NCBI RefSeq assembly: GCF_010183535.1
Contig: NC_071330.1
Location: forward strand, 17,217,717-17,281,716
Direction: 5' to 3'
Length of the DNA stretch: 64,000 bases
DNA from: Caenorhabditis remanei
Lineage: Eukaryota; Nematoda; Chromadorea; Rhabditida; Rhabditidae
The notes under the pieces: generated by a model
Databases searched by the model: none
What the model was told of the DNA's origin: nothing
Seen by the model: the letters and a program-made list of their open reading frames with translations, nothing else
Translations under genes and position numbers: made by a program
Part shown: positions 14,615 through 47,129 of the stretch, in pieces
How the letters are laid out: every line of letters begins with the position of its first letter
How positions within the stretch are numbered: the first letter of the stretch is position 1

Positions 14615-14751
14615 GTCTCAGTTTTTTCCACTTCTCCATCTCAATTCCGTTTTTTATGATTGAAATATTGATGCTCTTTGTTTATAGACATCCATTGAAA
14701 ATTCCCAGTGTTTATTGAGACAACAGGTTTTGGTTCCGTTTTGAAAAGTTA

Positions 14752-22209: not shown

Positions 22210-23177
22210 TGGAAAGGTTTGAAAAATTACTGAAAACCGACAATTTTAGTGTTAAACGCATTTCTAATGCTAACGAAATTTGAAAAAAATTATTCAAGGA
22301 ATCAAGAAAGAAAAAAGCGCACAAAACGAGAGTGCGAGGGAGAACTGACTGTATTCTATCTACCTAGCGTCATATGGGCATGGGGGCGTGGCCTATTTGT
22401 CATCATCTATTAGATTTCCCATCAAGATAAGTGACAGGTGTCAAGGAGAGCAATAAGTACACAGATCGCGGCAAAGAAAAAAGAATACGCGAACCATCAT
22501 CTTCACATTTATAAATAAGAACATGTACCAAGTTGGGACACCTGTCAATATTTTGATGAATCACGTAACGAAATTCGGCTGTACGAGAACTTAAAATAGC
22601 TGTTAGGTGCTGTGTAAAATAGGGATACTGTATTATTGATCGAGAACAGTAGTCTGCGAGAAACCAATTAATTTGGTTTGTTCGAGCTCGGTCGATTTTA
22701 GTGAGATGTAGGAGACAGCGCAGAATATGAAAAATTGGAAATCTCGATACATTCAAGTTCCATGAGTTTTACACACCTAACAGCTATTTTACGTTCTCGT
22801 ACAGCCGAATTTCGTTACGTGATTCATCAAAATATTGACAGGTGTCCCAACTTGGTACATGTTCTTATATATAAATGTGAAGATGATGGTTCGCGTATTC
22901 TTTTTTCTTTGCCGCGATCTGTGTACTTATTGCTCTCCTTGACACCTGTCACTTATCTTGATGGGAAATCTAATAGATGATGACAAATAGGCCACGCCCC
23001 CATGCTTATATGACGGTAGGTAGATAAAATACAGTCAGTTCTCCCTCGCACTCTCGTTTTGTGCGCTTTTTTTCTTTCTTGATTCCTTGAATAATTTTTT
23101 TCAAATTTCGTTAGCATTAGAAATGCGTTTAACACTAAAATTGTCGGTTTTCAGTAATTTTTCAAACCTTTCCACCA
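22210..23177. repeat. Inverted-repeat core of the satellite palindrome
   Basis: Arms at 22210-22620 and about 22767-23177 are inverted copies of each other, estimated at 95% identity or more by eye, around a unique spacer of about 146 bp. The satellite on each side continues the inversion, so this is the axis of a palindrome many kilobases long. Each arm holds an outward-facing open frame whose last 67 or so residues are almost identical (minus strand in the left arm, 22403 stop; plus strand in the right arm, 22980 stop). I do not recognise the sequence of the arms, which is not satellite. Confidence 0.9.
22735..22980 (+). other. Hypothetical 81-codon open frame in the palindrome core
   Basis: This frame starts at an ATG at 22735 in the spacer and ends in the right arm. 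A mirror version (117 codons, 22756-22403 on the minus strand) occupies the left arm. In the shared part the two proteins appear to differ at one position (AILRSRT against AILSSRT), and at least one other nucleotide difference is silent (ATA against ATT). The sequence contains CPNLVHVLIYKCEDDGSR and matches no family I know. It may simply reflect the high arm identity, so I do not claim it is a gene. Confidence 0.2.
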
Positions 23178-26100: not shown

Positions 26101-29100
26101 TCCTGTTCTCTAAACGTGAGTGCCTGTGACTAAATTCACTTGTGTAGTTCGGTATTAATTAGATAGTCAGTCAATAAAATACATTTTGAAACACGGGTTT
26201 CTCCAATGTGATGTTCAGGGTGGTTCTTCGGAATTATCCTGTTCTCTAAACGTGAGTGCCTGTGACTAAATTCACTTGTGTAGTTCGGTATTAATTAGAT
26301 ACTCTGCCAATAGTTTACATTTTGAAATACGGGTTTCTCCAATGTGATGTTCAGGGTGGTTTTTCGGAATTATCCTGTTCTCTAACCGTGAGTGCCTGTG
26401 ACTAAATTCACTTGTGTAGTTTGGTATTAATTAGATAGTAAGTCAATAAAATACATTTTGAAACACGGGTTTCTCCAATGTGATGTTCAGGGTGGTTCTT
26501 CGGAATTATCCTGTTCTCTAAACGTGAGTGCCTGTGACTAAATTCACTTGTGTAGTTCGGTATTAATTAGATACTCTGCCAATAGTTTACATTTTGAAAT
26601 ACGGGTTTCTCCAATGTGATGTTCAGGGTGGTTTTTCGGAATTATCCTGTTCTCTAACCGTGAGTGCCTGTGACTAAATTCACTTGTGTAGTTTGGTATT
26701 AATTAGATAGTAAGTCAATAAAATACATTTTGAAACACGGGTTTCTCCAATGTGATGTTCAGGGTGGTTCTTCGGAATTATCCTGTTCTCTAAACGTGAG
26801 TGCCTGTGACTAAATTCACTTGTGTAGTTTGGTATTAATTAGATACTCTGCCAATAGTTTACATTTTGAAATACGGGTTTCTCCAATGTGATGTTCAGGG
26901 TGGTTTTTCGGAATTATCCTGTTCTCTAAACGTGAGTGCCTGTGACTAAATTAACTTGTGTAGTTCGGTATTAATTAGATAGTAAGTCAATAAAATACAT
27001 TTTGAAATACGGGTTTCTCCAATGTGATGTTCAGGGTGGTTCTTCGGAATTATCCTGTTCTCTAAACGTGAGTGCCTGTGACTAAATTCACTTGTGTAGT
27101 TTGGTATTAATTAGATAGTAAGTCAATAAAATACATTTTGAAACACGGGTTTCTCCAATGTGATGTTCAGGGTGGTTCTTCGGAATTATCCTGTTCTCTA
27201 AACGTGAGTGCCTGTGACTAAATTCACTTGTGTAGTTTGGTATTAATTAGATAGTAAGTCAATAAAATACATTTTGAAACACGGGTTTCTCCAATGTGAT
27301 GTTCAGGGTGGTTCTTCGGAATTATCCTGTTCTCTAAACGTGAGTGCCTGTGACTAAATTAACTTGTGTAGTTCGGTATTAATTAGATAGTAAGTCAATA
27401 AAATACATTTTGAAATACGGGTTTCTCCAATGTGATGTTCAGAGTGGTTCTTCGGAATTATCCTGTTCTCTAAACGTGAGTGCCTGTGACTAAATTCACT
27501 TGTGTAGTTTGGTATTAATTAGATAGTAAGTCAATAAAATACATTTTGAAACACGGGTTTCTCCAATGTGATGTTCAGGGTGGTTCTTCGGAATTATCCT
27601 GTTCTCTAAACGTGAGTGCCTGTGACTAAATTCACTTGTGTAGTTCGGTATTAATTAGATAGTAAGTCAATAAAATACATTTTGAAATACGGGTTTCTCC
27701 AATGTGATGTTCAGGGTGGTTCTTCGGAATTATCCTGTTCTCTAAACGTGAGTGCCTGTGACTAAATTCACTTGTGTAGTTTGGTATTAATTAGATAGTA
27801 AGTCAATAAAATACATTTTGAAACACGGGTTTCTCCAATGTGATGTTCAGGGTGGTTCTTCGGAATTATCCTGTTCTCTAAACGTGAGTGCCTGTGACTA
27901 AATTCACTTGTGTAGTTCGGTATTAATTAGATACTCTGCCAATAGTTTACATTTTGAAATACGGGTTTCTCCAATGTGATGTTCAGGGTGGTTTTTCGGA
28001 ATTATCCTGTTCTCTAACCGTGAGTGCCTGTGACTAAATTCACTTGTGTAGTTTGGTATTAATTAGATAGTAAGTCAATAAAATACATTTTGAAACACGG
28101 GTTTCTCCAATGTGATGTTCAGGGTGGTTCTTCGGAATTATCCTGTTCTCTAAACGTGAGTGCCTGTGACTAAATTAACTTGTGTAGTTCGGTATTAATT
28201 AGATACTCTGCCAATAGTTTACATTTTGAAATACGGGTTTCTCCAATGTGATGTTCAGGGTGGTTCTTCGGAATTATCCTGTTCTCTAAACGTGAGTGCC
28301 TGTGACTAAATTCACTTGTGTAGTTCGGTATTAATTAGATAGTAAGTCAATAAAATACATTTTGAAATACGGGTTTCTCCAATGTGATGTTCAGGGTGGT
28401 TCTTCGGAATTATCCTGTTCTCTAAACGTGAGTGCCTGTGACTAAATTCACTTGTGTAGTTCGGTATTAATTAGATAGTAAGTCAATAAAATACATTTTG
28501 AAATACGGGTTTCTCCAATGTGATGTTCAGGGTGGTTCTTCGGAATTATCCTGTTCTCTAAACGTGAGCGCCTGTGACTAAATGCACTTGTGTAGTTCGG
28601 TATTAATTAGATACTCTGCCAATAGTTTACATTTTGAAATACGGGTTTCTCCAATGTGATGTTCAGGGTGGTTCTTCGGAATTATCCTGTTCTCTAAACG
28701 TGAGTGCCTGTGACTAAATTCACTTGTGTAGTTCGGTATTAATTAGATAGTAAGTCAATAAAATACATTTTGAAATACGGGTTTCTCCAATGTGATGTTC
28801 AGGGTGGTTCTTCGGAATTATCCTGTTCTCTAAACGTGAGTGCCTGTGACTAAATTCACTTGTGTAGTTCGGTATTAATTAGATAGTAAGTCAATAAAAT
28901 ACATTTTGAAATACGGGTTTCTCCAATGTGATGTTCAGGGTGGTTCTTCGGAATTATCCTGTTCTCTAAACGTGAGCGCCTGTGACTAAATGCACTTGTG
29001 TAGTTCGGTATTAATTAGATAGTAAGTCAATAAAATACATTTTGAAATACGGGTTTCTCCAATGTGATGTTCAGGGTGGTTCTTCGGAATTATCCTGTTC

Positions 29101-32100
29101 TCTAAACGTGAGTGCCTGTGACTAAATTCACTTGTGTAGTTCGGTATTAATTAGATAGTAAGTCAATAAAATACATTTTGAAATACGGGTTTCTCCAATG
29201 TGATGTTCAGGGTGGTTCTTCGGAATTATCCTGTTCTCTAAACGTGAGTGCCTGTGACTAAATTCACTTGTGTAGTTCGGTATTAATTAGATACTCTGCC
29301 AATAGTTTACATTTTGAAATACGGGTTTCTCCAATGTGATGTTCAGGGTGGTTCTTCGGAATTATCCTGTTCTCTAAACGTGAGTGCCTGTGACTAAATT
29401 CACTTGTGTAGTTCGGTATTAATTAGATACTCTGCCAATAGTTTACATTTTGAAATACGGGTTTCTCCAATGTGATGTTCAGGGTGGTTCTTCGGAATTA
29501 TCCTGTTCTCTAAACGTGAGTGCCTGTGACTAAATTCACTTGTGTAGTTCGGTATTAATTAGATAGTAAGTCAATAAAATACATTTTGAAATACGGGTTT
29601 CTCCAATGTGATGTTCAGGGTGGTTTTTCGGAATTATCCTGTTCTCTAACCGTGAGTGCCTGTGACTAAATTCACTTGTGTAGTTTGGTATTAATTAGAT
29701 AGTAAGTCAATAAAATACATTTTGAAATACGGGTTTCTCCAATGTGATGTTCAGGGTGGTTCTTCGGAATTATCCTGTTCTCTAAACGTGAGCGCCTGTG
29801 ACTAAATGCACTTGTGTAGTTCGGTATTAATTAGATACTCTGCCAATAGTTTACATTTTGAAATACGGGTTTCTCCAATGTGATGTTCAGGGTGGTTCTT
29901 CGGAATTATCCTGTTCTCTAAACGTGAGTGCCTGTGACTAAATTCACTTGTGTAGTTCGGTATTAATTAGATAGTAAGTCAATAAAATACATTTTGAAAT
30001 ACGGGTTTCTCCAATGTGATGTTCAGGGTGGTTCTTCGGAATTATCCTGTTCTCTAAACGTGAGTGCCTGTGACTAAATTCACTTGTGTAGTTCGGTATT
30101 AATTAGATAGTAAGTCAATAAAATACATTTTGAAATACGGGTTTCTCCAATGTGATGTTCAGGGTGGTTCTTCGGAATTATCCTGTTCTCTAAACGTGAG
30201 CGCCTGTGACTAAATGCACTTGTGTAGTTCGGTATTAATTAGATAGTAAGTCAATAAAATACATTTTGAAATACGGGTTTCTCCAATGTGATGTTCAGGG
30301 TGGTTCTTCGGAATTATCCTGTTCTCTAAACGTGAGTGCCTGTGACTAAATTCACTTGTGTAGTTCGGTATTAATTAGATAGTAAGTCAATAAAATACAT
30401 TTTGAAATACGGGTTTCTCCAATGTGATGTTCAGGGTGGTTCTTCGGAATTATCCTGTTCTCTAAACGTGAGTGCCTGTGACTAAATTCACTTGTGTAGT
30501 TCGGTATTAATTAGATACTCTGCCAATAGTTTACATTTTGAAATACGGGTTTCTCCAATGTGATGTTCAGGGTGGTTCTTCGGAATTATCCTGTTCTCTA
30601 AACGTGAGTGCCTGTGACTAAATTCACTTGTGTAGTTCGGTATTAATTAGATACTCTGCCAATAGTTTACATTTTGAAATACGGGTTTCTCCAATGTGAT
30701 GTTCAGGGTGGTTCTTCGGAATTATCCTGTTCTCTAAACGTGAGTGCCTGTGACTAAATTCACTTGTGTAGTTCGGTATTAATTAGATAGTAAGTCAATA
30801 AAATACATTTTGAAATACGGGTTTCTCCAATGTGATGTTCAGGGTGGTTCTTCGGAATTATCCTGTTCTCTAAACGTGAGTGCCTGTGACTAAATTCACT
30901 TGTGTAGTTCGGTATTAATTAGATAGTAAGTCAATAAAATACATTTTGAAATACGGGTTTCTCCAATGTGATGTTCAGGGTGGTTCTTCGGAATTATCCT
31001 GTTCTCTAAACGTGAGTGCCTGTGACTAAATTCACTTGTGTAGTTCGGTATTAATTAGATAGTAAGTCAATAAAATACATTTTGAAATACGGGTTTCTCC
31101 AATGTGATGTTCAGGGTGGTTCTTCGGAATTATCCTGTTCTCTAAACGTGAGTGCCTGTGACTAAATTCACTTGTGTAGTTCGGTATTAATTAGATAGTA
31201 AGTCAATAAAATACATTTTGAAATACGGGTTTCTCCAATGTGATGTTCAGGGTGGTTCTTCGGAATTATCCTGTTCTCTAACCGTGAGTGCCTGTGACTA
31301 AATTCACTTGTGTAGTTTGGTATTAATTAGATAGTAAGTCAATAAAATACATTTTGAAACACGGGTTTCTCCAATGTGATGTTCAGGGTGGTTCTTCGGA
31401 ATTATCCTGTTCTCTAAACGTGAGTGCCTGTGACTAAATTCACTTGTGTAGTTCGGTATTAATTAGATAGTCAGTCAATAAAATACATTTTGAAACACGG
31501 GTTTCTCCAATGTGATGTTCAGGGTGGTTCTTCGGAATTATCCTGTTCTCTAAACGTGAGTGCCTGTGACTAAATTCACTTGTGTAGTTCGGTATTAATT
31601 AGATACTCTGCCAATAGTTTACATTTTGAAATACGGGTTTCTCCAATGTGATGTTCAGGGTGGTTTTTCGGAATTATCCTGTTCTCTAACCGTGAGTGCC
31701 TGTGACTAAATTCACTTGTGTAGTTTGGTATTAATTAGATAGTAAGTCAATAAAATACATTTTGAAACACGGGTTTCTCCAATGTGATGTTCAGGGTGGT
31801 TCTTCGGAATTATCCTGTTCTCTAAACGTGAGTGCCTGTGACTAAATTAACTTGTGTAGTTCGGTATTAATTAGATACTCTGCCAATAGTTTACATTTTG
31901 AAATACGGGTTTCTCCAATGTGATGTTCAGGGTGGTTCTTCGGAATTATCCTGTTCTCTAAACGTGAGTGCCTGTGACTAAATTCACTTGTGTAGTTTGG
32001 TATTAATTAGATACTCTGCCAATAGTTTACATTTTGAAATACGGGTTTCTCCAATGTGATGTTCAGGGTGGTTCTTCGGAATTATCCTGTTCTCTAAACG

Positions 32101-33636
32101 TGAGTGCCTGTGACTAAATTCACTTGTGTAGTTCGGTATTAATTAGATAGTCAGTCAATAGTTTACATTTTGAAACACGGGTTTCTCCAATGTGATGTTC
32201 AGGGTGGTTCTTCGGAATTATCCTGTTCTCTAAACGTGAGTGCCTGTGACTAAATTGACTTGTGTAGTTCGGTATTAATTAGATAGTCAGTCAATAAAAT
32301 ACATTTTGAAATACGGGTTTCTCCAATGTGATGTTCAGGGTGGTTCTTCGGAATTATCCTGTTCTCTAAACGTGAGTGCCTGTGACTAAATTAACTTGTG
32401 TAGTTCGGTATTAATTAGATACTCTGCCAATAGTTTACATTTTGAAATACGGGTTTCTCCAATGTGATGTTCAGGGTGGTTCTTCGGAATTATCCTGTTC
32501 TCTAAACGTGAGTGCCTGTGACTAAATTCACTTGTGTAGTTTGGTATTAATTAGATACTCTGCCAATAGTTTACATTTTGAAATACGGGTTTCTCCAATG
32601 TGATGTTCAGGGTGGTTCTTCGGAATTATCCTGTTCTCTAAACGTGAGTGCCTGTGACTAAATTCACTTGTGTAGTTCGGTATTAATTAGATAGTCAGTC
32701 AATAGTTTACATTTTGAAACACGGGTTTCTCCAATGTGATGTTCAGGGTGGTTCTTCGGAATTATCCTGTTCTCTAAACGTGAGTGCCTGTGACTAAATT
32801 GACTTGTGTAGTTCGGTATTAATTAGATAGTCAGTCAATAAAATACATTTTGAAATACGGGTTTCTCCAATGTGATGTTCAGGGTGGTTCTTCGGAATTA
32901 TCCTGTTCTCTAAACGTGAGTGCCTGTGACTAAATTCACTTGTGTAGTTCGGTATTAATTAGATAGTCAGTCAATAGTTTACATTTTGAAACACGGGTTT
33001 CTCCAATGTGATGTTCAGGGTGGTTCTTCGGAATTATCCTGTTCTCTAAACGTGAGTGCCTGTGACTAAATTGACTTGTGTAGTTCGGTATTAATTAGAT
33101 AGTCAGTCAATAAAATACATTTTGAAATACGGGTTTCTCCAATGTGATGTTCAGGGTGGTTCTTCGGAATTATCCTGTTCTCTAAACGTGAGTGCCTGTG
33201 ACTAAATTCACTTGTGTAGTTCGGTATTAATTAGATAGTCAGTCAATAGTTTACATTTTGAAACACGGGTTTCTCCAATGTGATGTTCAGGGTGGTTCTT
33301 CGGAATTATCCTGTTCTCTAAACGTGAGTGCCTGTGACTAAATTCACTTGTGTAGTTCGGTATTAATTAGATAGTCAGTCAATAAAATACATTTTGAAAT
33401 ACGGGTTTCTCCAATGTGATGTTCAGGGTGGTTCTTCGGAATTATCCTGTTCTCTAAACGTGAGTGCCTGTGACTAAATTCACTTGTGTAGTTCGGTATT
33501 AATTAGATAGTCAGTCAATAAAATACATTTTGAAACACGGGTTTCTCCAATGTGATGTTCAGGGTGGTTCTTCGGAATTATCCTGTTCTCTAACCGTGAG
33601 TGCCTGTGACTAAATTCACTTGTGTAGTTCGGTATT
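23178..33636 (-). repeat. 136 bp satellite, array B (minus orientation)
   Basis: About 77 monomers of the same 136 bp satellite as array A, all inverted. Variant monomers alternate in runs: TACTCTGCCAATAGTTTAC units are interspersed with AGTCAGTCAATAAAATAC and AGTAAGTCAATAAAATAC units, and groups of several monomers repeat as larger blocks (for example near 28.5-30.7 kb and 32.1-33.3 kb). This suggests recent block amplification. The array ends at GTATT, where the LTR element is inserted. Confidence 0.97.
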
Positions 33637-34479
33637 TGTTGAGAGGGCAGCGAAAGTTAGCGGTCGGAGACTAACTGCAATCTCAGGGGAAATAAGAATC
33701 ATCCCAAATAATGTGTAAGCGGCATACATGTGAGATAAGCGGTGTAAGAAAGAACACAAGTGTATCAGTGACCCGTTTATTGAACCTTTTATCTCGGATT
33801 TCTCCTCGATAATACCAAAATATAGAGAAAGGGTAAATTAAAGGAATTTGTGCTGAGCGTCGTGTCCAAAGGAGCAGAAGAGGCGACGAAATGGACGACG
33901 AACGCGGCGGGAACTGATACGGCGGGAAAAAGAGACTGAAAGTCCCAAAAACCGGGTGAATGCCTGGACTCTAACGCGCGCTCGGTACAGATGGCACGGA
34001 AAACGTATAGTGCTGGCATCTGACCACCTCAACTACATTCTGCGGGACGTTCGAGGGAAAACCGAACGGAGACGGTCGAGAGCCGACCGTCCTCAAGCTG
34101 CCAGAATGAACACTGCTTTAGTCTGGCCTAAAAAGATAAGACTGAGCAAGACCACGCGACGCGACCGCACGCGAGTGACGGCATTGCGCACGTGGGAGAG
34201 AGAGTGGGAGAATGGAGAGGTGTTGGGTTTATTGGAGCGCAATTGCGGAGTTTTGAGCCTTTTGGGCGGTAATTTGAATTAGAATAATTTAGAATAATTA
34301 AATATAAACCAGATAACTGGAAATAACGACGATAATAGTGACATTGTTAATAAACAGATTGAATAAGATGTAATTAAAGGCTCCGATGGTCCTAGTTTTG
34401 TGGGGAAAACCAGAGGGGACCGTCGGATTGCCTTTGGTAGCCAAGTAAGGGGGTAACCGAAGGGGGAACCTTGGCTACA
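33637..34479 (-). repeat. Left LTR (3' LTR in sense orientation)
   Basis: This is an 843 bp direct copy of 43970-44812, starting TGTTGAGAGGGCAGC and ending CTTGGCTACA on the plus strand. It contains two CGGCGGGA sites (33905 and 33920), 15 bp apart, and an inverted pair TAGCCAAG/CTTGGCTA close to the right end (about 34437-34478). The 76- and 108-codon open frames in it occur in both LTRs only because the LTRs are identical. Confidence 0.93.
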
Positions 34480-34503
34480 CTCCCGGGGGGAGGGGACGGC
34501 GGG
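34471..34503. repeat. LTR/interior junction sequence, copy 1
   Basis: The junction TTGGCTAC-A-CTCCCGGGGGG followed by AGGGGACGGCGGG spans the end of the left LTR. Nearly the same 33 bases recur deep inside the element at 40454-40487, with one extra G and one substitution. Confidence 0.8.
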
Positions 34504-36796
34504 CTCCTGCACTTCAGCAAGTTTTACGCAGCCCGACGGGCACTACAAAACAAAAGCATCGGCGGGATTTCCCTGAACCTCCAGTCTTGACTGGTGGAAT
34601 TCAAAATCTGCATCATCGAGATTCTCTAGTTGATCGGTGTTTGGGTTCAGTGGTAGTTAATAATTTAATAATTTTTGATAAGTTTTAGTAGTAATTTTTA
34701 GATTCTGTTATAGGTTGGCTGATCTTGTGATTATTCTCGTGTTTATCTTTTAGAACGGCGGGAGCTGGCAATTCTTTAAGACGATTGTCCTGTGCGTTAT
34801 CTGTGCTATCCTCCGCTGCTGTATTTAGGCGGTTCAGTGGATTTAATTCCAGCGGAATCAGCAAACAGAATGCACGTGTATATGCATTGCTTTAGCATTA
34901 GACAATCTCAAGGCGAAATTGTCCGTCACGTTCACACAGATGATGATTGCCGATGACCAATTGTACCTTTTTTAGAATCGTTTTTCAATGATGACCACCT
35001 GTCCAACGGCGGAACGCAATGGCGTCAGCCGTTTTTCCTTCGGGTATGCTCTCTGGGTGGAAGATATCGATCAGATTTTTTGTATCAGTCAGATAGCTTG
35101 ATGCGACTTATTCAGATGGGTTGTAGATAACCTCTGTGCTCGAGTGAAGAGTATCTGATGTGTATTTGTCGGCAAGAGGTACAAGCTTGACTTTAAAGAA
35201 TGTAAAATCTTTCGGTATTGGAGCAGTTCTTTTTTTGGAAAGTTATATTGTGGAATCAAATTGGGTTAATTAGTGTGAATTTGTACAATTTATACAATGT
35301 ATCGATATAAGTGCTCCTTGAGTACTTTGTGACTTAAATTTTTGTCAAAGTTTGATACTCGATATCCGGTGGGAATTATAGCTTTCTGATTCAGTCTTTG
35401 GGAGGCTCGTTGATGCTGAGCGATCCGTCCGTTTTAGATCAATTGATTGATACATCAGACTTGGTGAACCGTTTCCTCCTGTAGCTTACCCATTATCGGA
35501 TTTTTAGTATTGCTGAACTTTGAATGTTTTTCGTATAATTTTAAATAATTTTATGAGAGAATTATGTTGCTGGAACGATGGTAGTTGATCTTAACGCCAG
35601 TGATGCCTACAGTCTTGACTGTTTCGGCGGGACTGGATTGTGTTTTATCATTTGAGCTCAATTGGCAGTTATTGAGTCAGATAGATGACTGTTACTATCA
35701 AGAAATGAAAACGAAGTGACAATTGGTGGTCTCTCATCCAAGATATAGTAGGCATAACAATCGACCGCACAGTTGTCATGTGACGCACTGCTAGACATAT
35801 GCAAGAGTTGTTCGGAAAATTCGTTTCCGTCGTAAGCTGTCTAGGGATGACGATCACTCTGTCTGTGAAGGTGTTACACAGAGCTCTCCCATACGGGTAG
35901 CAGCTCATTTGGGATGAGACTCTTCCAATTATTGACATAACTGTATGTAAGTGCTCACCAGAGCAGTGAGATCACCATTTACGGTTAGACGTTTTCAGCT
36001 GATTTGGAAGCAACTTCTCTGTTTAGATGTTTACTTTGTTAGAGTTGTGCTCTTCTTCCGAGTTTTTTCATAAGCACTGTGACCATGTTTTTGAGCTGTT
36101 GCCTATGCAACCATCGGCGGGACTAGTGAGCCTAGTGGGCCTTGGTGACTGTTGAGCGATTTTGCAAAGGAGTCTTTGCCATTGATCTTCGAGTAGGAAA
36201 ATTGGTTACGGTACTTGGATTGAACTTGAATCAAAATCAGTATACGCTTGTCAAGAACTTTTTTCCATCTTTTCACCGTGGTTTAATAGCACTGCACAGG
36301 TTGTGACTCATATCAAGGCCTGCGATCTTGATGGATCATTGGATCACTGTGGAATCGGAGAAGAGCTTTGAATACATTTTTATCGTTCTGGCTGATATTG
36401 TTGGACTTTTGGACTGATTACTGCGTTTGTTTCAAGATCATGAGATACAAGAGTTATTTAGTTGCTTTTTAGGAAGAGTGACAATCGAGCGTCCGATTCG
36501 ACCATAGCCAGACGAGTTACTCACTCTGACATCTCAATGTAGGCGTAAAGTGATTGTAGTCACAATAAGGGATTAGCATTATACTCTTGTCAGAATTTCG
36601 ATCTTGCCAAAAGGTTGGTAAACATCAGTATGTCCAGATTTATTGGATCCTCAGCTTCAGAACAGTTAGCTCGAGAAAACAAAAAACAAAAAACTATATA
36701 TATGTATATAGGTAAAAATGAAAAATAAAAGAGCTTATTGGTTTGTTAGGGTAGTGATGAATCCACGGCGGGACGAGCGCAATTTCAGAAACGGAA

Positions 36797-37590
36797 TTAG
36801 TAGAACAAGCAGGAAAATCTATCTTTAGCAATTAATTTTGCTGTTGGCAAGTTCTCTTTGTTTTCTGTAGTACTCTTTGGCTGGAAAGCCACCCATGTGG
36901 TGAAGATCGTCACAGTATCCGCAACTACTTGTTCGGCGGGAAGTTTTTTAGTTGCACTTTCTTCCGCTTCTCTGTCTGCGTTTAGCTGCGGTTCAACCTG
37001 CAGAGAGTTCATGTATTTGAAACTCTGTAATTTGCTGGTAAAGTCTTCTATGTATGTCTTCTCGTTGAGACTGAAACTGCTTTGCAGCTTCCATGAGAGA
37101 CAGGTCGCTTGCTGCAGATGACGTGTCTGAACAATCTGAGTTCGACTGAGACCTGGCTAAGATTCCCGAACCGGCTCCAGTATGTGCTGATTCTATACGA
37201 GTGCGAAGGATCTTCGAGTCGTAGCGACTGTTCTCTGTATCGGCGGGATTACCGTCCGTCATAATGTCATCCGCAACTCTGACATTGCTGTGCTGGAAGC
37301 CGCTTAGCGGTTGTCCGCTGGAGATGCATTTGTCTATTCAGAGATTTTAGAATCTCTGGCGATTGAAATTGTTCGTAGATATATGTATCAAGTGTTTCGA
37401 TCCGAGATGCCGTGTCCTTCGTGTTGAAGGCAAGTGTGGCTATGGATGATAGCATTTCTTGATCAATATCTTCAGGGATCTTATTGATGGGATCACACAA
37501 GATATTCAAAGCTGCTTCGAATTCCGCAAGGAGTTCTTCGGCTTTTGAACTTTTTGAAGGAATCGTCGTATTGACATGAGATGGTTACAA
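36797..37590 (-). pseudogene. Protein-like fragment in the LTR element (unidentified, frame-broken)
   Basis: Three overlapping minus-strand frames in succession (about 37590-37267, 37300-36993 and about 37030-36797) read like one acidic, coiled-coil-rich protein with frame changes near 37290 and 37010. Recognisable pieces are AEELLAEFEAALNIL, SPEILKSLNRQMHLQ, SDTSSAASDLSLMEAAKQF and NADREAEESATKKLPAE. The composition would suit a gag-like or host-derived protein, but I recognise no domain. With almost identical LTRs, the frame breaks must predate the last transposition, or the pieces are not one protein. CGGCGGGA sites lie within the frames and are read as Pro-Ala. Confidence 0.35.
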
Positions 37591-38049
37591 GAGGGATATC
37601 TTGTTTGAGGTAGATGCAAGAGGGATATCTTGTTTGAGGTAGATGCAAGAGGGATGTCTTGACTTGTGATGAATATAAGAGGGATATCTTGTTCATCTGA
37701 ATTTCCGTTTTATGTTTTATCCGCGGCTATGCACTACTAGTATGATTGTGGTGAACTGGAAGGTTCTTCGGATCTCCTAGTGTGTTAGCTCGTAGATGTT
37801 GACCGTCTACTTCACCCATTACGTCAGGGGATTTCTGTGTGGGAAGGCACAGCCTGGTTGTTCGTATTGGGTTGGTAGGTATTCTGAGTTTGATGGTATG
37901 TAACTCGGAAGGGGATACCTTCTTGGTGGATATGCACTCTACAGTGCCCTAGAGTTTATTTCAACTCATGGAAGGGGATGCCTTCTGCCTGGGGGAGGGG
38001 ATGCCTCTACTGGCCTTTGCGACTAAGCCGTACTCTCCGGGGATACCGG
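37439..38049. repeat. Hairpin cluster 1: shared GGATA/GGATG loop, varying stems
   Basis: Nine short hairpins share a loop but not a stem: GCTAT-GGATG-ATAGC (37439), CAAGA-GGGATA-TCTTG (37588 and 37617), CAAGA-GGGATG-TCTTG (37646), AAGA-GGGATA-TCTT (37677), GAAGG-GGATA-CCTTC (37908), GAAGG-GGATG-CCTTC (37971), GAGG-GGATG-CCTC (37995) and CCGG-GGATA-CCGG (38037). Three of them sit in a 29 bp tandem repeat, but the others have unrelated surroundings. On the opposite, sense strand the loop reads UAUCC(C). Confidence 0.8.
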
Positions 38050-38347
38050 TTGTTGTACAACTCCGAGGGACATCGGGCCGTGACCTCGCCAAGGGTCAGG
38101 GTCGCTCTGGCCACACTGATGTGAGCAGACTTCGGGGATAATTCCGGTGCTGTTCCGGATTGATTGCTCGGAATCGGAAGCGGATATTTCAGGATAAGGT
38201 GGCGAACTCCTTCTCCCTTCATATCTGATCATGAAGAGTGAATCTCTCTACACTAGCTTCTTTCTTTGCTGTTATCAATCTTTTGCGGTTAGGAATACCG
38301 ATTTGACATTCGAGAGAATTTGCAGTCATGTTTAAGTTTGATAAGTT

Positions 38348-39199
38348 TTACAAGAGTTTATTTGAATACGAAATAAACGAGTAGTTCGAATGAATTTGAC
38401 AAGATTCGGCGGGATATTGGATACACATCGGCGGGAATGTCAGACGATCAGTGTCATCTGATCATTGAGCCGGATCCTCTTGGAGTGCCGGAATGTTGCA
38501 AACACATTCTTGAGTCTCGTTACCCAGAACGGCGATAAGTTGATCCCAAGCAATTTGGAGGAAAATCCATTGCATCAACTCAGCAAATAATGATGTGCTC
38601 CCATGTGAATCCACCGCGAATTCCGAAGAAGAATTCGTCTGGAACATTCATCTTTTGAATGTCTGGTGTGCTCGGCGGGAAATGTCTCCACGAATAGCTC
38701 GTGGGCAATTGACTTCATCAGAAGGCACGTGTGCCAACCGCGAGGGACTGTTAGCCAGTAATTTTTGAGAAACTTTGTAACTTTTGGACTGCGTGTTCTC
38801 TCAAATGCCGTGACCGATATTAATCGATACGGATATGAAAATAGAACATGATAAAACCGCCGCCCTGTCGGTGGCCTTGGCCATATTATGTCTCGCTGTA
38901 GTGCGATATTCGATGGACTTGTATCACACTTTCTGGGTGTCAACCAGAGGTTTGATTCGTGAAATATCGCAACCAACTTTTCACTGAATAGGGTCCGCTG
39001 CGTACCAGAAAGCGCTTTCCGGCACAGACAACTTTCTTTCTGCTTCAATCTTTAACTGCCACTTATAGACATCTTTCAGTCGTCAAAGTCTGTGGTGCAG
39101 GGAATATAGAGTGATTGGTCGGGTCTTCGAGAGTTGACGGCTCTCTCCGATACTACAGTGTCCTCGATACAACACGGATTCGGTTGCCGACAGCGCCAT
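38348..39199 (-). pseudogene. 284-codon minus-strand frame interrupted only by TGA
   Basis: Starting at an ATG (39199), one frame runs to a TAA at 38348-38350 and meets six in-frame TGA codons but no internal TAA or TAG. Pieces include ESRQLSKTRPITLYSLHHRL, RLKDVYKWQLKIEAERKL and LLANSPSRLAHVPSDEVN; the last is faintly like the HVPS.eNPAD region of BEL/Pao elements, which is a weak resemblance only. A second frame overlaps it (39048-38575) and is fully open for 157 codons, so which frame was ever translated is uncertain. Confidence 0.25.
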
Positions 39200-39635
39200 A
39201 GTTTATGATTTCTAGAATCCGATCAGTATTTCAATTGCAGATTACTCTACAACCTAACTTTTGGAATACATATCACCTTTTCTGGAATGAAGAGGATTTG
39301 TTTTTGCATGATCAATTGAGGGCTTACTCGCGCTGTCAGTATATGACAGTGAATTACTTGGACAATTGAGAGCACGCTAGTAGTATTGGATGTTAAACTA
39401 CTATTTTTCGAAAAGGGGAAGCTTTTCTGGTATTTTTCTGATCTTTTAAGTTCAAAGGAGGTGGAACTTGTCGCGTTTGTGGACGTATGCTTGGCAACTT
39501 TTCGCTTTGCTGTGAAGCTGCGGGATGTTACATTGTAAGCTGTGTCTCAGTGTGCTCCGAAGTAGTTCATGAAGTGATATGAACGTCTACTTCTTGGAGC
39601 GTTATATTTTAGAAGTCGTCGCTTTTGAACGGAAG

Positions 39636-40072
39636 CGTTGGGATGACAACGTACTTACATCCTTCGTCGGCGGGACCTCTATACTCTGGAATCTGTGAGT
39701 GGAGTTCTCGTAGTGTGATTCCTTCGGAGTATTGTTTTAGCATCAGAGTAAGTAGCATGTAACCACAGAATCGTCTACTCTTCAGCAATTTTTTCAGTCA
39801 GAGTGAGGGATATCACTCGTAACCAGCGGCGGGACAATAAGATGAAATGCCATCTGGTTGTCTTTGGAATTTGTTATAAAATGTTTGGAGTGAAGGGATA
39901 TCATCGACTCCTTTATGGATTTACTGAGTGATGGGAATATCATCGATTCAGGGTCCAAATTTTCGAGTGATAGGGATATTATTGACTCGAGTTTCAGATA
40001 TTATGAGTAATAGGGATATTATCGACTCATTTTTATATTGATTTATTGAGTGATGGGGATATCATCGTCTCA
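39636..40072. repeat. Hairpin cluster 2: GGGATA-loop hairpins with bulged stems
   Basis: Seven hairpins: CGTTG-GGATGA-CAACG (39636), GAGTGA-GGGATA-TCACTC (39801), and five at 39887, 39924, 39964, 40003 and 40047 with inner GAT/ATC pairing beside a GGGATA-like loop and a bulge on the 3' side. The outer stems differ: GGAGT/ACTCC, CTGA/TCAG, CGAGT/ACTCG, ATGAGT/ACTCAT and TGAG/CTCA. The last five look like diverged tandem copies whose stem changes are compensated. Confidence 0.8.
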
Positions 40073-40453
40073 GACTTGTTTGCGCTGGACTATGTTCAAG
40101 CGGCTTATTATGAAAATTTATTAGGGTTTCTCATCCCTTTAATTTTGAGTGCTTTTTAAGCAGCTCAGAGATTGAGGATAAAGTTACCTAGTTATTTGTG
40201 CTCGAAAAGATCGTCTCGGGCTGCTGCCATTATCTCATATCAATACGAACACTCCACGAATGTCTTTTTGAAGTAATATGTTCAAAGTAGTATGACTCAG
40301 TGTGGTTTCATGAAGAAGAAATAATGGATATGGATAACAATAACAGATTTATTTGCAAGGATGGGCTTTTAAAAACATGTCTCGTTAGAGATAACAACAA
40401 AAAAGATTTGATTAACAGCGGCGGGATATGCTATTCAATCAGTATGAGAACTG

Positions 40454-40487
40454 TTGGCTACGCTCCCGGGGGGGAGGGGACGGCGGG
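40454..40487. repeat. LTR/interior junction sequence, copy 2 (internal)
   Basis: This is a near-exact copy of the 34471-34503 junction: TTGGCTACGCTCCCGGG and then a G-run and ACGGCGGG. It includes bases that belong to the LTR end in the other copy. It may be a remnant of an older LTR edge or a second functional tract. Confidence 0.75.
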
Positions 40488-41005
40488 AGTGTTCTGATTG
40501 AAGAAGTGTCTTCGTTGAGCTGATGCCACCTTGGGATGCTGTAATAATCAATAGTTGTTCACTGTCATGCTGATTTCTGCGCCATACCTTATTGGTTGGT
40601 CTTTTGAGAGACGATGGTAGAGCGGCGGGAGCACTCGTGGGTAGAGGGATTGCTCTGCTCGCACAGACCGCGTCCTTTCTGAAAAATATTCAGATGGGGG
40701 TATCTTTCGAGTAATTCTCTTTAATTCACGCTTTTATGAGGCGTTTCTGGAGTATGAATCCCTTCTTTGTTAGACTGCGTGTTACTCTGCATCTCGGCGG
40801 GATTACGATCACGTGTCAACAAGTCTGCGATACGACTTGCGGAGATTTTGTACACGGAAATCAATCAGTGGATGTTCTCGTTGATCCAAATCATGTCTAC
40901 ATGCCTCAACCAGATTCTCTCTCGTTCTCTGTGAGTGTGTATTCAAACCAAGTCGACTAGACTGTGAAGCATTTTAATAATGGCATTCTTTAGAATGACC
41001 AAGGT

Positions 41006-41623
41006 TTACAGAGAACGGTTGAACTTTGAGAGTTGGGAAGATATGTCTTTGCAGAGTTTGATCCAGAACGGCGGGAAGTCTAGTTGTATGACAATTGAGT
41101 CAACTTTACTCTTGATGTCTAGGATAGAACTTCGCAATTCATCGTCTTCTGGAAGAAAGGTCATACTTGATTCTGTATGCTATTAACGTTATACCTTGAC
41201 GAGAAGAGGCTTTAACGACTGGTGATGAACCACGGACAGCTGATGGAATGATCGTTTCAACTGAATCTGAACTCTCATCGGCGGGAATTTACTCTATGAG
41301 CTTTCCACGCTCGGAAGAGCTGTTGGACATGTGTCCTTAACTGGTTCAGACTTGAGAGCTCTCTTCTTTCTTCGGCTCTTGGTCACCTGCTCGCTATCTC
41401 TAACGTCCTCCGAAGACATACCGGTAGGCACATCGTTCGGCGGGATAGGAGCTTTGTCTTCTATAGCTTCCGTCTTTTCATTCTCTTTCAGTAGCACTCT
41501 GACTTTATTAGTTACGATAGTATGTGTCTCTTTAGAAGTCATCTGTATATATTTGTTACAGATTAGAAGAGCTTCGCAGTTTGGTGTAACATCAGTGCGT
41601 GTATTCCACGTCTGAATATGCAA
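41006..41623 (-). pseudogene. Protein-like fragment in the LTR element (unidentified)
   Basis: A 109-codon minus-strand frame (41623-41294) with the basic cluster KSRRKKRALKSEPVK ends in TAG. A second frame picks up at 41287 with PADESSDSVETIIPSAVRG, and a third continues with EDDELRSSILDIKSKVDSIV and stops at 41006-41008. The pieces are hydrophilic and partly coiled-coil-like. I do not recognise the protein, and the frame changes mean it is not expressed as one chain unless unseen splicing joins them. Confidence 0.3.
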
Positions 41624-43955
41624 AGTAGTTGAATATGTTCAAGAATTGTCTTGAAAGGAACAACAACAATGTACAACAGTGGTTTATAGGAGAATATATT
41701 AAGGTAAACAGCATTTAATCAATATTTGTTCGCTTTTAGCTGACGGCGGGATTCGGTGTCGTTTTCTGACATGTTCTCGCTTCACCGACACATTCCAGTC
41801 AATTCCCATCTTCTTCAGTTTCAGAGGCTTATGCTTCACAAGATGGAGATGGGCCATGAGGGCTATCATATGGGAATGACGGCGGGATCTGCAATGCCGA
41901 ATCCTTTGGCGACTGTTGCCTTGTCAGATTATCGAGACGGCAGGAACTAGTCGCTTGGCTTGGCTCTGAATAAAGAATAATTATTCATGAGCTCGCTTAT
42001 TGGAATTGATTACCTTGACTGAGTCCTCAGCTGTCTGGAATCCGGCGACTTGGTCGCTTTGATTCGCTTGAGACATCCGAAATGGCTTTGAACGTGTTGA
42101 AATTCTCTGAAGTCCTCTTGGGACGCACTCAGAGTGAGTGGAGGTTCACGTCGGCTCATCGGCGGGACTTGCTTCTGTAAAATGACAGAATTTGTATTAG
42201 GTATACAATCGTATGACTTGAAGCGATGCTTTTTTATCGAATTTCAGAGAATTTTTGGCGCTTTATCGGTTTATTTCAGCTTGGATTTATTCAAAATGAT
42301 GAAGTTTTTGCTGGGAATTGTTTGTAATGAGCAAAAGAATGAATGTTAAGGCATGATTTCGAAGAGATACAAAATATCACAGGCGGTCGCCACGCTACCG
42401 CACTGCTTTTGCCCTCATTCTTGTATTGCATCATCTTTTTCGAAGATTTTGGATGAAAATCCCGAAGAATGTGGTATTTCCCCGTGAAATTCCAACAAAC
42501 ACAGCATGAGCAATGGAGCTCAAGCGCATTGATTGTCATCCCACCTGGGGTTAACCAAGAATTTTCGAGTTTCAACCGAAAATCGCACGAAATACCGATT
42601 TTTTTGGCGATTTTATCGAAATTATTCGATTTTTTAGCATTAATGCCATGATTTTTGCCGAAAGCTTGGCTGTTAGCTTTTTAAACTTCAAGCGAGTGAA
42701 TAGTTTCGAGAATTTTTCACAAATCGGATAAGTTTTTAGCCTTGAAACCGAAAATTTTATGGGAAAATTATCGATTTTTTGAATTTTTGGTATGTTTCTC
42801 GGAAATTTTTTCTCGATTTTTTCCAAAATCACATAAGAAATACTTACTTTCTTTCGAAGAACTCCTCCACCGGCGGGACGTGTCTCTTTTGCACTGATTC
42901 CAGAGCTTTTCGAAGGCGGGGTGGTAAATTTGGAGTTTTTGACTTCTTTGTCAGTGATTTTTTCTTGTCATGCCACATTTTTTGTCTGAAAATATTCAGA
43001 ACAATTATTTTTTACAATATTTATGTAAAATATTAGCGAACGAGAGAGAATTTTGTACGGAAGAGCGAAAAGATTTGAGGCCTGAGCGAAAAACGTGTTT
43101 CGAAACTCGTGCGCGTAGGGTTGTGCACCATGCAGTCCGCAATTGTACGCAACCCGTGTGCGCGGCCTGCGGTCGCGTACCGTACTCCCTTTGGGAAATT
43201 CAAACGGTTATTGTCGATTTACGGGACCTTTAGCGGGTTTCCCGATGAATTTTCGATGAAATTTTCGAAAATTTTCGAAAATTATTGATTTGTGGGCAAT
43301 TGACAATGGAAAAAAATTTCACAGGGGCCACCTGATCGATTTACCATGGATTCTAGCACACTTGATTGCCTCTCTCGCACATTTTCACAGGAAAACGACG
43401 AATTTGAGTGGACTCTACTCATGAATGTGCTAATGGCGGCTATTTTTGTCCGTGAATGTGCCTTGCGGGAGTCATATGACTTCTCATCGCAGGTTTACCA
43501 CTAGGGGCTCCTGGACATTACCGCGGCTATTTCGACAGACACTGCTGGAAGCGATCGTGATCGCCGAACCAGGAAATGACGGAATAACGAGAAAAAGGAG
43601 AGAAATAACGAAGAAAAGACAGAGAATAAGGTGTTTCAGGGTATAAAATAGCATTCTAACATACTATCGCCCACTCACATGCCTTAAATTGAATTTTTGG
43701 GACGCCGACACGGTTCGTATAATGATTTCCGATCGAAAAATCGATTATATAGAATTTTTTGGTTTTTTTCCGGAGTTTTGTGCCATAGCGGTCACAAAAA
43801 ACGACTACTCCGTTACGCCTGGAGTTTTGCGACACGAGAGTCACAAAAAACGACTACTCCATCAGCGGCGGGACCAAAATACGTTCAACGATGGAAGAGA
43901 ACGGTTAAAAATCGATAAAAACGGAAAATCACAGCCAATCAATACAAGTATTGAA

Positions 43956-43969
43956 CGGTCGATGCACCA
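43956..43969 (-). promoter_or_regulatory. Primer-binding site, tRNA-Gly-like
   Basis: On the minus strand the bases directly after the right LTR read TGGTGCATCGACCG. This is the complement of a tRNA 3' end ...CGATGCACCA, which fits metazoan tRNA-Gly(GCC) for at least the first ten bases. No TGG occurs next to the left LTR on the plus strand. The site therefore sets the sense direction as minus and makes the right LTR the 5' LTR. Confidence 0.75.
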
Positions 43970-44812
43970 TGTTGAGAGGGCAGCGAAAGTTAGCGGTCGG
44001 AGACTAACTGCAATCTCAGGGGAAATAAGAATCATCCCAAATAATGTGTAAGCGGCATACATGTGAGATAAGCGGTGTAAGAAAGAACACAAGTGTATCA
44101 GTGACCCGTTTATTGAACCTTTTATCTCGGATTTCTCCTCGATAATACCAAAATATAGAGAAAGGGTAAATTAAAGGAATTTGTGCTGAGCGTCGTGTCC
44201 AAAGGAGCAGAAGAGGCGACGAAATGGACGACGAACGCGGCGGGAACTGATACGGCGGGAAAAAGAGACTGAAAGTCCCAAAAACCGGGTGAATGCCTGG
44301 ACTCTAACGCGCGCTCGGTACAGATGGCACGGAAAACGTATAGTGCTGGCATCTGACCACCTCAACTACATTCTGCGGGACGTTCGAGGGAAAACCGAAC
44401 GGAGACGGTCGAGAGCCGACCGTCCTCAAGCTGCCAGAATGAACACTGCTTTAGTCTGGCCTAAAAAGATAAGACTGAGCAAGACCACGCGACGCGACCG
44501 CACGCGAGTGACGGCATTGCGCACGTGGGAGAGAGAGTGGGAGAATGGAGAGGTGTTGGGTTTATTGGAGCGCAATTGCGGAGTTTTGAGCCTTTTGGGC
44601 GGTAATTTGAATTAGAATAATTTAGAATAATTTAATATAAACCAGATAACTGGAAATAACGACGATAATAGTGACATTGTTAATAAACAGATTGAATAAG
44701 ATGTAATTAAAGGCTCCGATGGTCCTAGTTTTGTGGGGAAAACCAGAGGGGACCGTCGGATTGCCTTTGGTAGCCAAGTAAGGGGGTAACCGAAGGGGGA
44801 ACCTTGGCTACA
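43970..44812 (-). repeat. Right LTR (5' LTR in sense orientation)
   Basis: This 843 bp copy of 33637-34479 has one substitution that I can see (T44633 for A34300). In the sense (minus) direction it begins TGTAGCCAAGG and ends CTCTCAACA. The promoter should lie here, but I see no clear TATA box or start site that I would assign. It carries two CGGCGGGA sites (44238 and 44253), one of which is followed by AAAA on the plus strand and so has the best E2F-like context in the element. Confidence 0.93.
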
Positions 44813-47129
44813 GTATTAATTAGATAGTCAGTCAATAAAATACATTTTGAAACACGGGTTTCTCCAATGTGATGTTCAGGGTGGTTCTTCGGAATTATCC
44901 TGTTCTCTAACCGTGAGTGCCTGTGACTAAATTCACTTGTGTAGTTCGGTATTAATTAGATAGTCAGTCAATAAAATACATTTTGAAACACGGGTTTCTC
45001 CAATGTGATGTTCAGGGTGGTTCTTCGGAATTATCCTGTTCTCTAACCGTGAGTGCCTGTGACTAAATTCACTTGTGTAGTTCGGTATTAATTAGATACT
45101 CTGCCAATAGTTTACATTTTGAAACACGGGTTTCTCCAATGTGATGTTCAGGGTGGTTCTTCGGAATTATCCTGTTCTCTAAACGTGAGTGCCTGTGACT
45201 AAATTCACTTGTGTAGTTCGGTATTAATTAGATAGTCAGTCAATAAAATACATTTTGAAACACGGGTTTCTCCAATGTGATGTTCAGGGTGGTTCTTCGG
45301 AATTATCCTGTTCTCTAACCGTGAGTGCCTGTGACTAAATTCACTTGTGTAGTTCGGTATTAATTAGATACTCTGCCAATAGTTTACATTTTGAAACACG
45401 GGTTTCTCCAATGTGATGTTCAGGGTGGTTCTTCGGAATTATCCTGTTCTCTAAACGTGAGTGCCTGTGACTAAATTCACTTGTGTAGTTCGGTATTAAT
45501 TAGATAGTCAGTCAATAAAATACATTTTGAAACACGGGTTTCTCCAATGTGATGTTCAGGGTGGTTCTTCGGAATTATCCTGTTCTCTAAACGTGAGTGC
45601 CTGTGACTAAATTCACTTGTGTAGTTCGGTATTAATTAGATACTCTGCCAATAGTTTACATTTTGAAATACGGGTTTCTCCAATGTGATGTTCAGGGTGG
45701 TTCTTCGGAATTATCCTGTTCTCTAAACGTGAGTGCCTGTGACTAAATTCACTTGTGTAGTTCGGTATTAATTAGATAGTCAGTCAATAAAATACATTTT
45801 GAAATACGGGTTTCTCCAATGTGATGTTCAGGGTGGTTCTTCGGAATTATCCTGTTCTCTAAACGTGAGTGCCTGTGACTAAATTCACTTGTGTAGTTCG
45901 GTATTAATTAGATAGTAAGTCAATAAAATACATTTTGAAATACGGGTTTCTCCAATGTGATGTTCAGGGTGGTTCTTCGGAATTATCCTGTTCTCTAAAC
46001 GTGAGTGCCTGTGACTAAATTCACTTGTGTAGTTCGGTATTAATTAGATAGTAAGTCAATAAAATACATTTTGAAACACGGGTTTCTCCAATGTGATGTT
46101 CAGGGTGGTTCTTCGGAATTATCCTGTTCTCTAAACGTGAGTGCCTGTGACTAAATTCACTTGTGTAGTTCGGTATTAATTAGATAGTAAGTCAATAAAA
46201 TACATTTTGAAATACGGGTTTCTCCAATGTGATGTTCAGGGTGGTTCTTCGGAATTATCCTGTTCTCTAAACGTGAGTGCCTGTGACTAAATTCACTTGT
46301 GTAGTTCGGTATTAATTAGATAGTAAGTCAATAAAATACATTTTGAAATACGGGTTTCTCCAATGTGATGTTCAGGGTGGTTCTTCGGAATTATCCTGTT
46401 CTCTAAACGTGAGTGCCTGTGACTAAATTCACTTGTGTAGTTCGGTATTAATTAGATAGTAAGTCAATAAAATACATTTTGAAACACGGGTTTCTCCAAT
46501 GTGATGTTCAGGGTGGTTCTTCGGAATTATCCTGTTCTCTAAACGTGAGTGCCTGTGACTAAATTCACTTGTGTAGTTCGGTATTAATTAGATAGTAAGT
46601 CAATAAAATACATTTTGAAACACGGGTTTCTCCAATGTGATGTTCAGGGTGGTTCTTCGGAATTATCCTGTTCTCTAAACGTGAGTGCCTGTGACTAAAT
46701 TCACTTGTGTAGTTCGGTATTAATTAGATAGTAAGTCAATAAAATACATTTTGAAATACGGGTTTCTCCAATGTGATGTTCAGGGTGGTTCTTCGGAATT
46801 ATCCTGTTCTCTAAACGTGAGTGCCTGTGACTAAATTCACTTGTGTAGTTCGGTATTAATTAGATAGTAAGTCAATAAAATACATTTTGAAATACGGGTT
46901 TCTCCAATGTGATGTTCAGGGTGGTTCTTCGGAATTATCCTGTTCTCTAAACGTGAGTGCCTGTGACTAAATTCACTTGTGTAGTTCGGTATTAATTAGA
47001 TAGTAAGTCAATAAAATACATTTTGAAATACGGGTTTCTCCAATGTGATGTTCAGGGTGGTTCTTCGGAATTATCCTGTTCTCTAAACGTGAGTGCCTGT
47101 GACTAAATTCACTTGTGTAGTTCGGTATT
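44813..47129 (-). repeat. 136 bp satellite, array C (minus orientation)
   Basis: About 17 monomers continue array B after the LTR insertion; the first begins with the duplicated GTATT. The right half is nearly uniform, with AGTAAGTCAATAAAATAC monomers in succession. The array stops abruptly at 47129 against an inverted piece of the RING-type gene. Confidence 0.97.

Follow-up and report, generated by a model that had tools for sequence, protein, structure and literature searches.

A structured, intron-like leader in a Caenorhabditis remanei BEL/Pao element as a candidate genomic-RNA identity region, with matching GGAT loops in one copy

Two clusters of short hairpins in the genome of the nematode Caenorhabditis remanei present nearly the same loop, GGGATA or a close variant, on different stems, and raise the question of whether the loop is the selected part of a structured RNA. 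Both clusters lie in a stretch of 64,000 nucleotides (nt) (contig NC_071330.1, positions 17,217,717 to 17,281,716; the window from here on) and are contained in an 11.2-kb long terminal repeat (LTR) element at 33637-44812. A first-pass annotation had taken the fixed loop on changing stems as the mark of a selected site that is read through its loop. Our answer is a tentative one, which we regard as plausible but short of probable: the hairpins would form part of a very long structured leader in a BEL/Pao element, a Psi-like region that gives the genomic RNA its identity. Relatives of the element were sought in 130.5 Mb of genome in 186 contigs, in which the window is G000:C3:17217717-17281716.

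The orientation of the element was taken from these relatives. L046, one relative recovered in pieces, matched Peptidase_A17 (Pao), RVT_1, Integrase_H2C2 and DUF1759 (PF05380 at E 5.1e-58), with protease matches slightly below the cut-off, and frames longer than 200 amino acids (aa) in the fetched relative pieces were confined to the sense strand (L053 had none). Because of these domains and the sense-only long frames, the family is classed by sequence as BEL/Pao LTR retrotransposons, with the sense strand corresponding to the minus strand of the window.

The hairpins themselves proved real. A strict scan of the whole window (Watson-Crick stem of at least 4, loop of 4-8 nt containing GGAT) gave 25 plus-strand hairpins and a single minus-strand one. 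Nine of the 25 lay outside the element and 16 inside it, where the two clusters account for 13. Outside the element, TTCC-GGATAA-GGAA repeats score as GGAT hairpins within ACTTCCG heptamer arrays at 60033-60573, which have higher periods of 34 and 41 bp. The sixteen hairpins of the annotation were not itemised and are identified here with nine sites in cluster A and seven in cluster B. All 16 fold; the strict scan recovers 13 and misses three (39885, 39924 and 39964) that are bulged. Tandem Repeats Finder placed one array at 37588-37693, with 3.6 copies of a 29-nt unit, and another at 39888-40073, with 4.7 copies of a 39-nt unit; 9/16 hairpins come from these two arrays. The sites are as follows.

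37439..37453, plus strand: hairpin GCTAT-GGATG-ATAGC within the gag remnant, from the strict scan; probably a chance hairpin
37587..37693, plus strand: four tandem CAAGA-GGGATR-TCTTG hairpins of cluster A with a 29-nt period, from repeat and hairpin scans
37908..38049, plus strand: four cluster A hairpins with the pattern GG-GGATR-CC, at 37908, 37971, 37995 and 38037, from the scan and folding
39636..39651, plus strand: cluster B hairpin CGTTG-GGATGA-CAACG, a single site
39801..39818, plus strand: cluster B hairpin GAGTGA-GGGATA-TCACTC, a single site that resembles the 39-nt tandem unit
39885..40074, plus strand: five tandem bulged hairpins (39885, 39924, 39964, 40003, 40046) with a period of about 39 nt, from repeats and folding

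GGAT-loop hairpins exceeded the number expected from shuffled sequence. With stems of at least 5, the internal region (34483-43970) contained 9, eight in the clusters and one at 42445, compared to a mean of 0.76 and a maximum of 3 in 200 dinucleotide shuffles. With stems of at least 4, cluster A (37400-38100) contained 9 and cluster B (39600-40100) contained 4, compared to means of 0.30 (maximum 3, n=1000) and 0.24 (maximum 4, n=1000). We also performed a collapsed test, in which near-identical stems were merged and the loop 4-mer was not fixed beforehand (200 shuffles). Cluster B was matched by 0/200 shuffles, cluster A by 8/200 and the whole leader by 5/200, and the best loop 4-mer of the whole leader was TTCC, not ATCC. 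Other stretches scored as well as the whole leader (L061, 2/200; L051, 5/200; the coding piece L050, 5/200; window 1-6400, 7/200), and a 5-mer version gave 8/200 for the leader and 0, 0, 1 and 4 of 200 for L063, window 1-6400, L043 and L049, respectively. These collapsed-stem results limit the loop agreement to the clusters, which had been picked by eye; it does not stand out at the level of the leader.

The comparison with relatives does not support a fixed loop on changing stems as the rule of the family: their homologous hairpins keep either stem or place and differ in loop. The first cluster A hairpin of the CAAGA type is present in 7/7 relatives, one copy each, as CAAGAGG-ATT-CCTCTTG (window orientation), ending 76-80 nt before the AG of an acceptor-like site. 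Reading the same letters as CAAGA-GGATTCC-TCTTG, with a GGAT loop, was rejected, as they form a 7-bp stem with the loop ATT. The hairpin at 39801 has a counterpart in 6/6 relatives, GAGTRA and TTACTC around six varying bases, which two alignments place slightly differently. For the hairpin at 39636 a compensated counterpart, TGTTG-GGAGTT-CAACA, was found in the C4 copy only, the five other aligned relatives having a gap there. Homology is unsure for the tandem copies and for the GG-GGATR-CC group, and the unit at 37971 lies in a 25-nt stretch absent from the aligned relatives.

Matching loops are also tied to the window copy by genome-wide pattern searches. The first array pattern, with one mismatch allowed, had 7 matches, four in this array and three at single sites elsewhere; the second, with three mismatches allowed, had 4, all in this array. 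In these searches the tandem arrays themselves were thus found nowhere else, and both are in the window copy only. No hairpin with a stem of at least 5 and a GGATA or GGATG loop was present in the 11 relative pieces scanned. A bulged GGAAGG-GGATG-CCTTTCC hairpin does occur elsewhere in the leader of 4/7 relatives (C6a, C1, C4, C49), at a place that falls in a 16-nt gap of the window copy. The letters of this hairpin, the unit GGAAGGGGATGCCTT, recur in the window copy at 37970, in the stretch that the relatives lack. In L040, L043, L045 and L052 the unit lies close to the position that corresponds to window 39279, and at each of its places, window 37970 included, it is a clean indel. Judged from its positions, the hairpin unit may have been copied between places in the leader. 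On the sense strand, C6a has two copies of CTGATAT-GGGATT-ATATCAG, C4 one and C49 three; these six GGGATT loops sit on the strand opposite to the GGAT loops of the window. Among the relatives compared here, we found no loop shared by homologous hairpins of related elements. By sequence comparison, the array of matching loops is peculiar to the window copy, and in the family stems tend to persist and loops vary.

These observations bear on the possibility that the matching loops are a by-product, their units multiplied or moved during reverse transcription, through slippage or template switching, with function residing in the older stems only or nowhere. The restriction of the arrays to the window copy, the displaced position of GGAAGGGGATGCCTT and the weak loop agreement after collapsing of duplicates would all follow. 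Three observations fit it less well: the LTRs of the element differ at 1/843 bases, indicating that the lineage moved recently; the tandem copies have different outer stems that nevertheless pair; and the CAAGA, GAGTGA and GG-GGATR-CC groups have, by eye, no common flanks. We consider such an origin possible but rather unlikely.

The relatives and the window copy have in common a leader rich in hairpins. The internal region contained 103 Watson-Crick hairpins with stems of at least 5, compared to 54.6+-8.0 in shuffles, and leader pieces of six relatives showed excesses of 1.6-2.4-fold (observed/shuffled: L040, 63/33.5; L043, 54/32.5; L045, 72/38.9; L047, 88/37.3; L049, 82/50.2; L051, 88/41.9). 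The excess was smaller in the largely coding pieces L050 (47 vs 36.9) and L046 (49 vs 35.1), small in DNA flanking the element in the window (156 vs 125.2 and 106 vs 81.5), and slight in the element's sub-region 40100-42200 (16 vs 12.2). Mixed pieces were in excess (L041, 49/28.0; L042, 46/28.5; L044, 86/43.6; L052, 93/60.3), and L053 had none (6/9.9). Conservation of folding was examined in seven aligned leaders over 58 half-overlapping 120-column windows with column shuffles. The mean z was -3.06 for the sense and -2.36 for the antisense strand; 32 of the 58 windows had z below -2 in sense and 23 in antisense, and the sense value was the lower in 40. A gag control gave means of -0.54 (sense) and +0.15 (antisense). 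One hairpin was prominent:

42481..42551 (approximate, by eye), minus strand: long leader hairpin conserved on the sense strand; z -9.1 sense and -0.7 antisense, with compensated pairs, seven copies

Stem changes between homologous elements were compensated in 51/556 changed pairs, compared to 22/616 in position-shifted controls (13 pairwise comparisons, gapped or unaligned stems set aside). A.C pairs, which are G.U in sense, numbered 111 in stems and 81 in controls, and G.T pairs 115 and 188. Set against the annotation's own refuting condition, uncompensated stem changes in homologous elements, the outcome is mixed, as half of the changed pairs were broken. An alignment of 11 sites put the stems in two registers, and a search of Rfam 15 gave 0 matches above the gathering score in the window, L047, L051, L045 and L061. 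Taken together, the leader sequences carry a signal for structured sense-strand RNA, mixed with many chance hairpins. The annotation's proposal is supported in part: hairpin excess in the leader, conserved sense folding and some compensated stems speak for a selected structured RNA, and a fixed loop with free stems is not supported as a family rule.

The position of the clusters suggests what such a structure might do. In sense order, the element has a 5' LTR, a primer site, approximately 1.1 kb, a donor-like site and a hairpin-rich stretch of approximately 5 kb, giving a leader of approximately 6 kb; in relatives the stretch ends at an acceptor-like site approximately 42 nt before the gag ATG.

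42838..42851, minus strand: splice-donor-like site, sense GAAA|GTAAGTATTT, approximately 1.1 kb into the internal region, with the G of GT at 42847; recognised by pattern
37541..37559, minus strand: deletion junction at which the acceptor-like site and gag start of relatives are lost; from comparison with relatives
38818..39279, minus strand: leader segment repeated in the genome, at 28 further places at about 69-73% identity besides 7 close relatives

The donor-like site is found in 7/7 copies (six relative leaders and the window copy), about 1.0-1.1 kb into the leader, and reads AAGA|GTGAGTATTT or AAGA|GTAAGCATAT in the six relatives. The acceptor-like site, TTTTCAG or TTTCAG followed by TTGACTGG or TTAACTGG, is found in 7/7 relatives (L041, L042, L044, L052, L047, L048, L051); the window copy has lost it together with the gag start in a deletion of approximately 260 nt. 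Since both clusters lie between the donor-like and acceptor-like positions, they are probably within an intron-like stretch of the leader, which would be retained only in unspliced genomic RNA.

A retroviral packaging signal lies between the donor and gag. The most likely role of the stretch would be to mark unspliced genomic RNA for the element's own proteins, via packaging or export. Splicing would remove the hairpin-rich stretch to give the gag mRNA, and the full-length genomic RNA, alone in keeping it, could use it as an identity tag. Gag would then choose RNA for particles through the stretch, as through a Psi-like signal, perhaps together with UCCCGCCG octamers (see below). In the window copy two hairpins would have grown into tandem arrays; several loops of this copy read AUCC(C) in sense, and a non-autonomous copy could gain from the extra sites. 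The same arrangement would also suit a nuclear-export or splice-control element, whose hairpins hold back a portion of the RNA from splicing and take it out of the nucleus. The location between donor- and acceptor-like sites and the CAAGAGG hairpin close to the acceptor AG are consistent with this, as is the case of Cer1, whose unspliced genomic RNA, according to PMC10309623, needs the element's own protein CERV for its export. Cer1 is Ty3-like, unlike the BEL/Pao family here, and we think a role of this kind unlikely.

Several points weigh against a packaging-like role. Transcription, splicing and binding are all deduced from sequence. The donor and acceptor are assigned from sequence patterns, and an outron with spliced-leader (SL) trans-splicing would look alike. 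The largely coding piece L048 is also in hairpin excess (77 vs 46.0). The gag control comprises 10 windows only (of its three gag blocks, two had too few rows and were left out); column shuffles bias z downward, and a few gapped windows were extreme on both strands (-20.7 and -18.3). Compensation accompanies much breakage, 279/556 changed pairs being broken (325/616 in controls), and the 13 pairwise comparisons share sequences and so are not independent. In the conserved cluster B stem (the 39801 counterpart), L040 has a G.T pair that is A.C in sense, and which thus pairs, as G.U, only in antisense. Finally, 15/16 window hairpins folded singly were more stable on the plus, antisense, strand.

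This last result would fit sites that act as DNA or as antisense RNA with the GGGATA reading, for example as palindromic factor sites or hairpins of minus-strand cDNA. The comparison of strands thus came out differently at the two levels: single hairpins favor the plus strand, and family-level folding and the wobble pattern favor sense. The plus strand is moreover G/T-rich, and controls too have more G.T than A.C. Purine loops and this G/T-richness explain part of the antisense stability; the remainder counts against a sense role of the arrays. A DNA or antisense role is in our judgment very improbable.

A second repeated feature of the element is a one-stranded octamer. Written CGGCGGGA on the plus strand (UCCCGCCG in sense), it occurs 28 times in the element between 33905 and 44253, 4 of these in the LTRs and always on one strand, and the rest of the window has no copy of it; for the internal region the count of TCCCGCCG (sense) is 24, with 0 on the other strand. 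It is the top k-mer in 7/9 pieces tested; in C6a1 only its own 7-mer ranks above it, and in C4a it comes third. In the alignment of the window copy with C4 it is intact at 12/13 places, compared to 129/346 for other GC-rich 8-mers, and between copies the values were 12/13, 12/13, 6/9, 8/10, 8/10, 8/11 and 9/10, compared to 0.18-0.54 for the other 8-mers. Coding parts of relatives carry it as well; in L046 it falls in three frames of the upstream open reading frame (ORF) and two of pol, one overlap site being counted twice. The octamer is predicted to be less paired (median) than GC-matched 8-mers in 5/5 leaders, with similar means in the window leader (0.021 vs 0.023).

Other leader families show hairpin excess to different degrees, clear in L061 (58/27.8), L065 (32/13.6) and L066 (29/14.9) and weak in L062 (22/16.8), L063 (22/16.1), L064 (22/14.8) and L067 (20/16.0). 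L061 (G000:C4:5551000-5556000), L065 and L066 belong to another leader family that shares the 460-nt leader segment (window 38818-39279); the palindromic core CCGCGG occurs in them 14, 9 and 7 times and TCCCGCCG not at all, and ATCCGCGG occurs in L061 8 times in sense and 2 on the other strand. L066:1161-1382 (sense) contains three tandem GATCTG-AAACTC-CAGATC hairpins and GGTCTGG-GATA-CCAGACC, with 68-nt spacing and an A-T to G-C pair change. An ACAAAT loop noticed by eye in L061 was rejected as a second case of loop agreement: the 5-mer test selected another 5-mer, with 27/200 shuffles as extreme, and the 4-mer test gave 2/200, but for TATT.

The remaining anatomy of the window copy is as follows.

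33637..34479, minus strand: 3' LTR (sense orientation), 843 bp; compared with the other LTR
43970..44812, minus strand: 5' LTR (sense orientation), 843 bp; from LTR comparison and flanking duplication
43956..43969, minus strand: putative primer binding site, sense TGGTGCATCGACCG, directly 3' of the 5' LTR
36797..37540, minus strand: gag remnant with broken frames; from sequence comparison with relatives
35343..36020, minus strand: pol remnants, short and weak; tblastn E 8.5e-8 and 5.6e-5

The LTRs are of the TG...CA type and are flanked by a 5-bp target duplication, GTATT, at 33632-33636 and 44813-44817; directly after the right LTR the minus strand reads TGG... A polypurine tract was looked for before the 3' LTR in sense; what immediately precedes this LTR is only a short GGGAG. 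An internal copy of the junction preceding the 3' LTR (TTGGCTACGCTCCCGGGGGG...) is found at 40454-40487 and also in L040, L043 and L045; from its sequence it could be a central-polypurine-tract-like site. The insertion site is a 136-bp satellite (Tandem Repeats Finder), with arrays at 14750-33636, 44813-47129 and 62787-63995, those at 14750 and 23176 being oppositely oriented. A genome search with the LTR gave at least 44 matches, 2 of them the element's own LTRs, a lower bound because 40/85 candidates were scored.

The longest start-to-stop ORF of the window copy is 157 aa, and no Pfam match was obtained in the four window pieces searched, all from outside the pol part. gag, 728 aa in L041, L042 and L052, is broken. 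The region 34526-36852, in which pol survives only as remnants, matches L041, L042 and L044 at 82-84%; since their longest frames are 740-764 aa and a long pol frame is missing there too, the alignment indicates that pol loss is common to this subgroup. Because the gag start and acceptor are lost and only pol remnants are left, yet the LTRs are near-identical, the window copy was probably mobilised in trans. Large retrotransposon derivatives (LARDs) are large, have no long frame, and combine near-identical LTRs with a structured interior. The window copy is like them in size, frames, LTRs and interior, and differs in being a BEL/Pao derivative with gag and pol remnants.

How the leader relates to known systems can be stated point by point. 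The Pao peptidase, reverse transcriptase, integrase and DUF1759 of L046 and the 5-bp target duplication of the window copy are as in BEL/Pao elements, from which the approximately 6-kb leader with its intron-like stretch is a departure; PMC3118150 bounds full-length elements at 2-15 kb, and six relatives here span 12.3-19.7 kb between outer LTR ends. Retroviral Psi, e.g. that of MMTV (PMC8096270), is likewise a structured RNA; the leader here is far longer, and its Psi-like role is putative. Dispersed packaging signals of RNA viruses (PMC6281560) resemble this element in having many stem-loops per RNA, a recurring loop (in this copy) and, here, a repeated octamer, and differ in that the loop is not common to the family and that the signals here are predicted. 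Cer1 is similar in that it, too, is an LTR element of a worm, its ATG is preceded by a splice acceptor and its unspliced genomic RNA has to be exported; it differs in being Ty3/gypsy-like, and RNA hairpins are not mentioned in the passages of PMC10309623 consulted. The repeated CGG-CCG motif of Sireviruses (PMC2829016) is GC-rich like the octamer and also belongs to an LTR element, but is symmetric and found in the LTRs and near env, whereas the octamer is one-stranded and found in the leader and coding region. A literature search found no account of BEL/Pao elements recognising their own RNA and no description of this leader, which is no proof of absence in print.

A wider proposal, quite doubtful at present, is that this worm BEL/Pao lineage marks its genomic RNA by a two-part code, consisting of the scattered UCCCGCCG octamer, every few hundred bases in leader and genes, and of hairpin modules carried in the intron that multiply, change place and acquire new common loops (here AUCC in sense) while older stems stay. 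If so, the loop switch would reflect a changed reader protein or a bid of the pol-less copy for particle space, and the leader family of L061 would have a repeated motif of its own, ATCCGCGG. The multi-kb structured, intron-like leader, with its conserved stems and one-strand octamer, offers a concrete candidate for RNA recognition by BEL/Pao elements, in an animal genus with good genetics.

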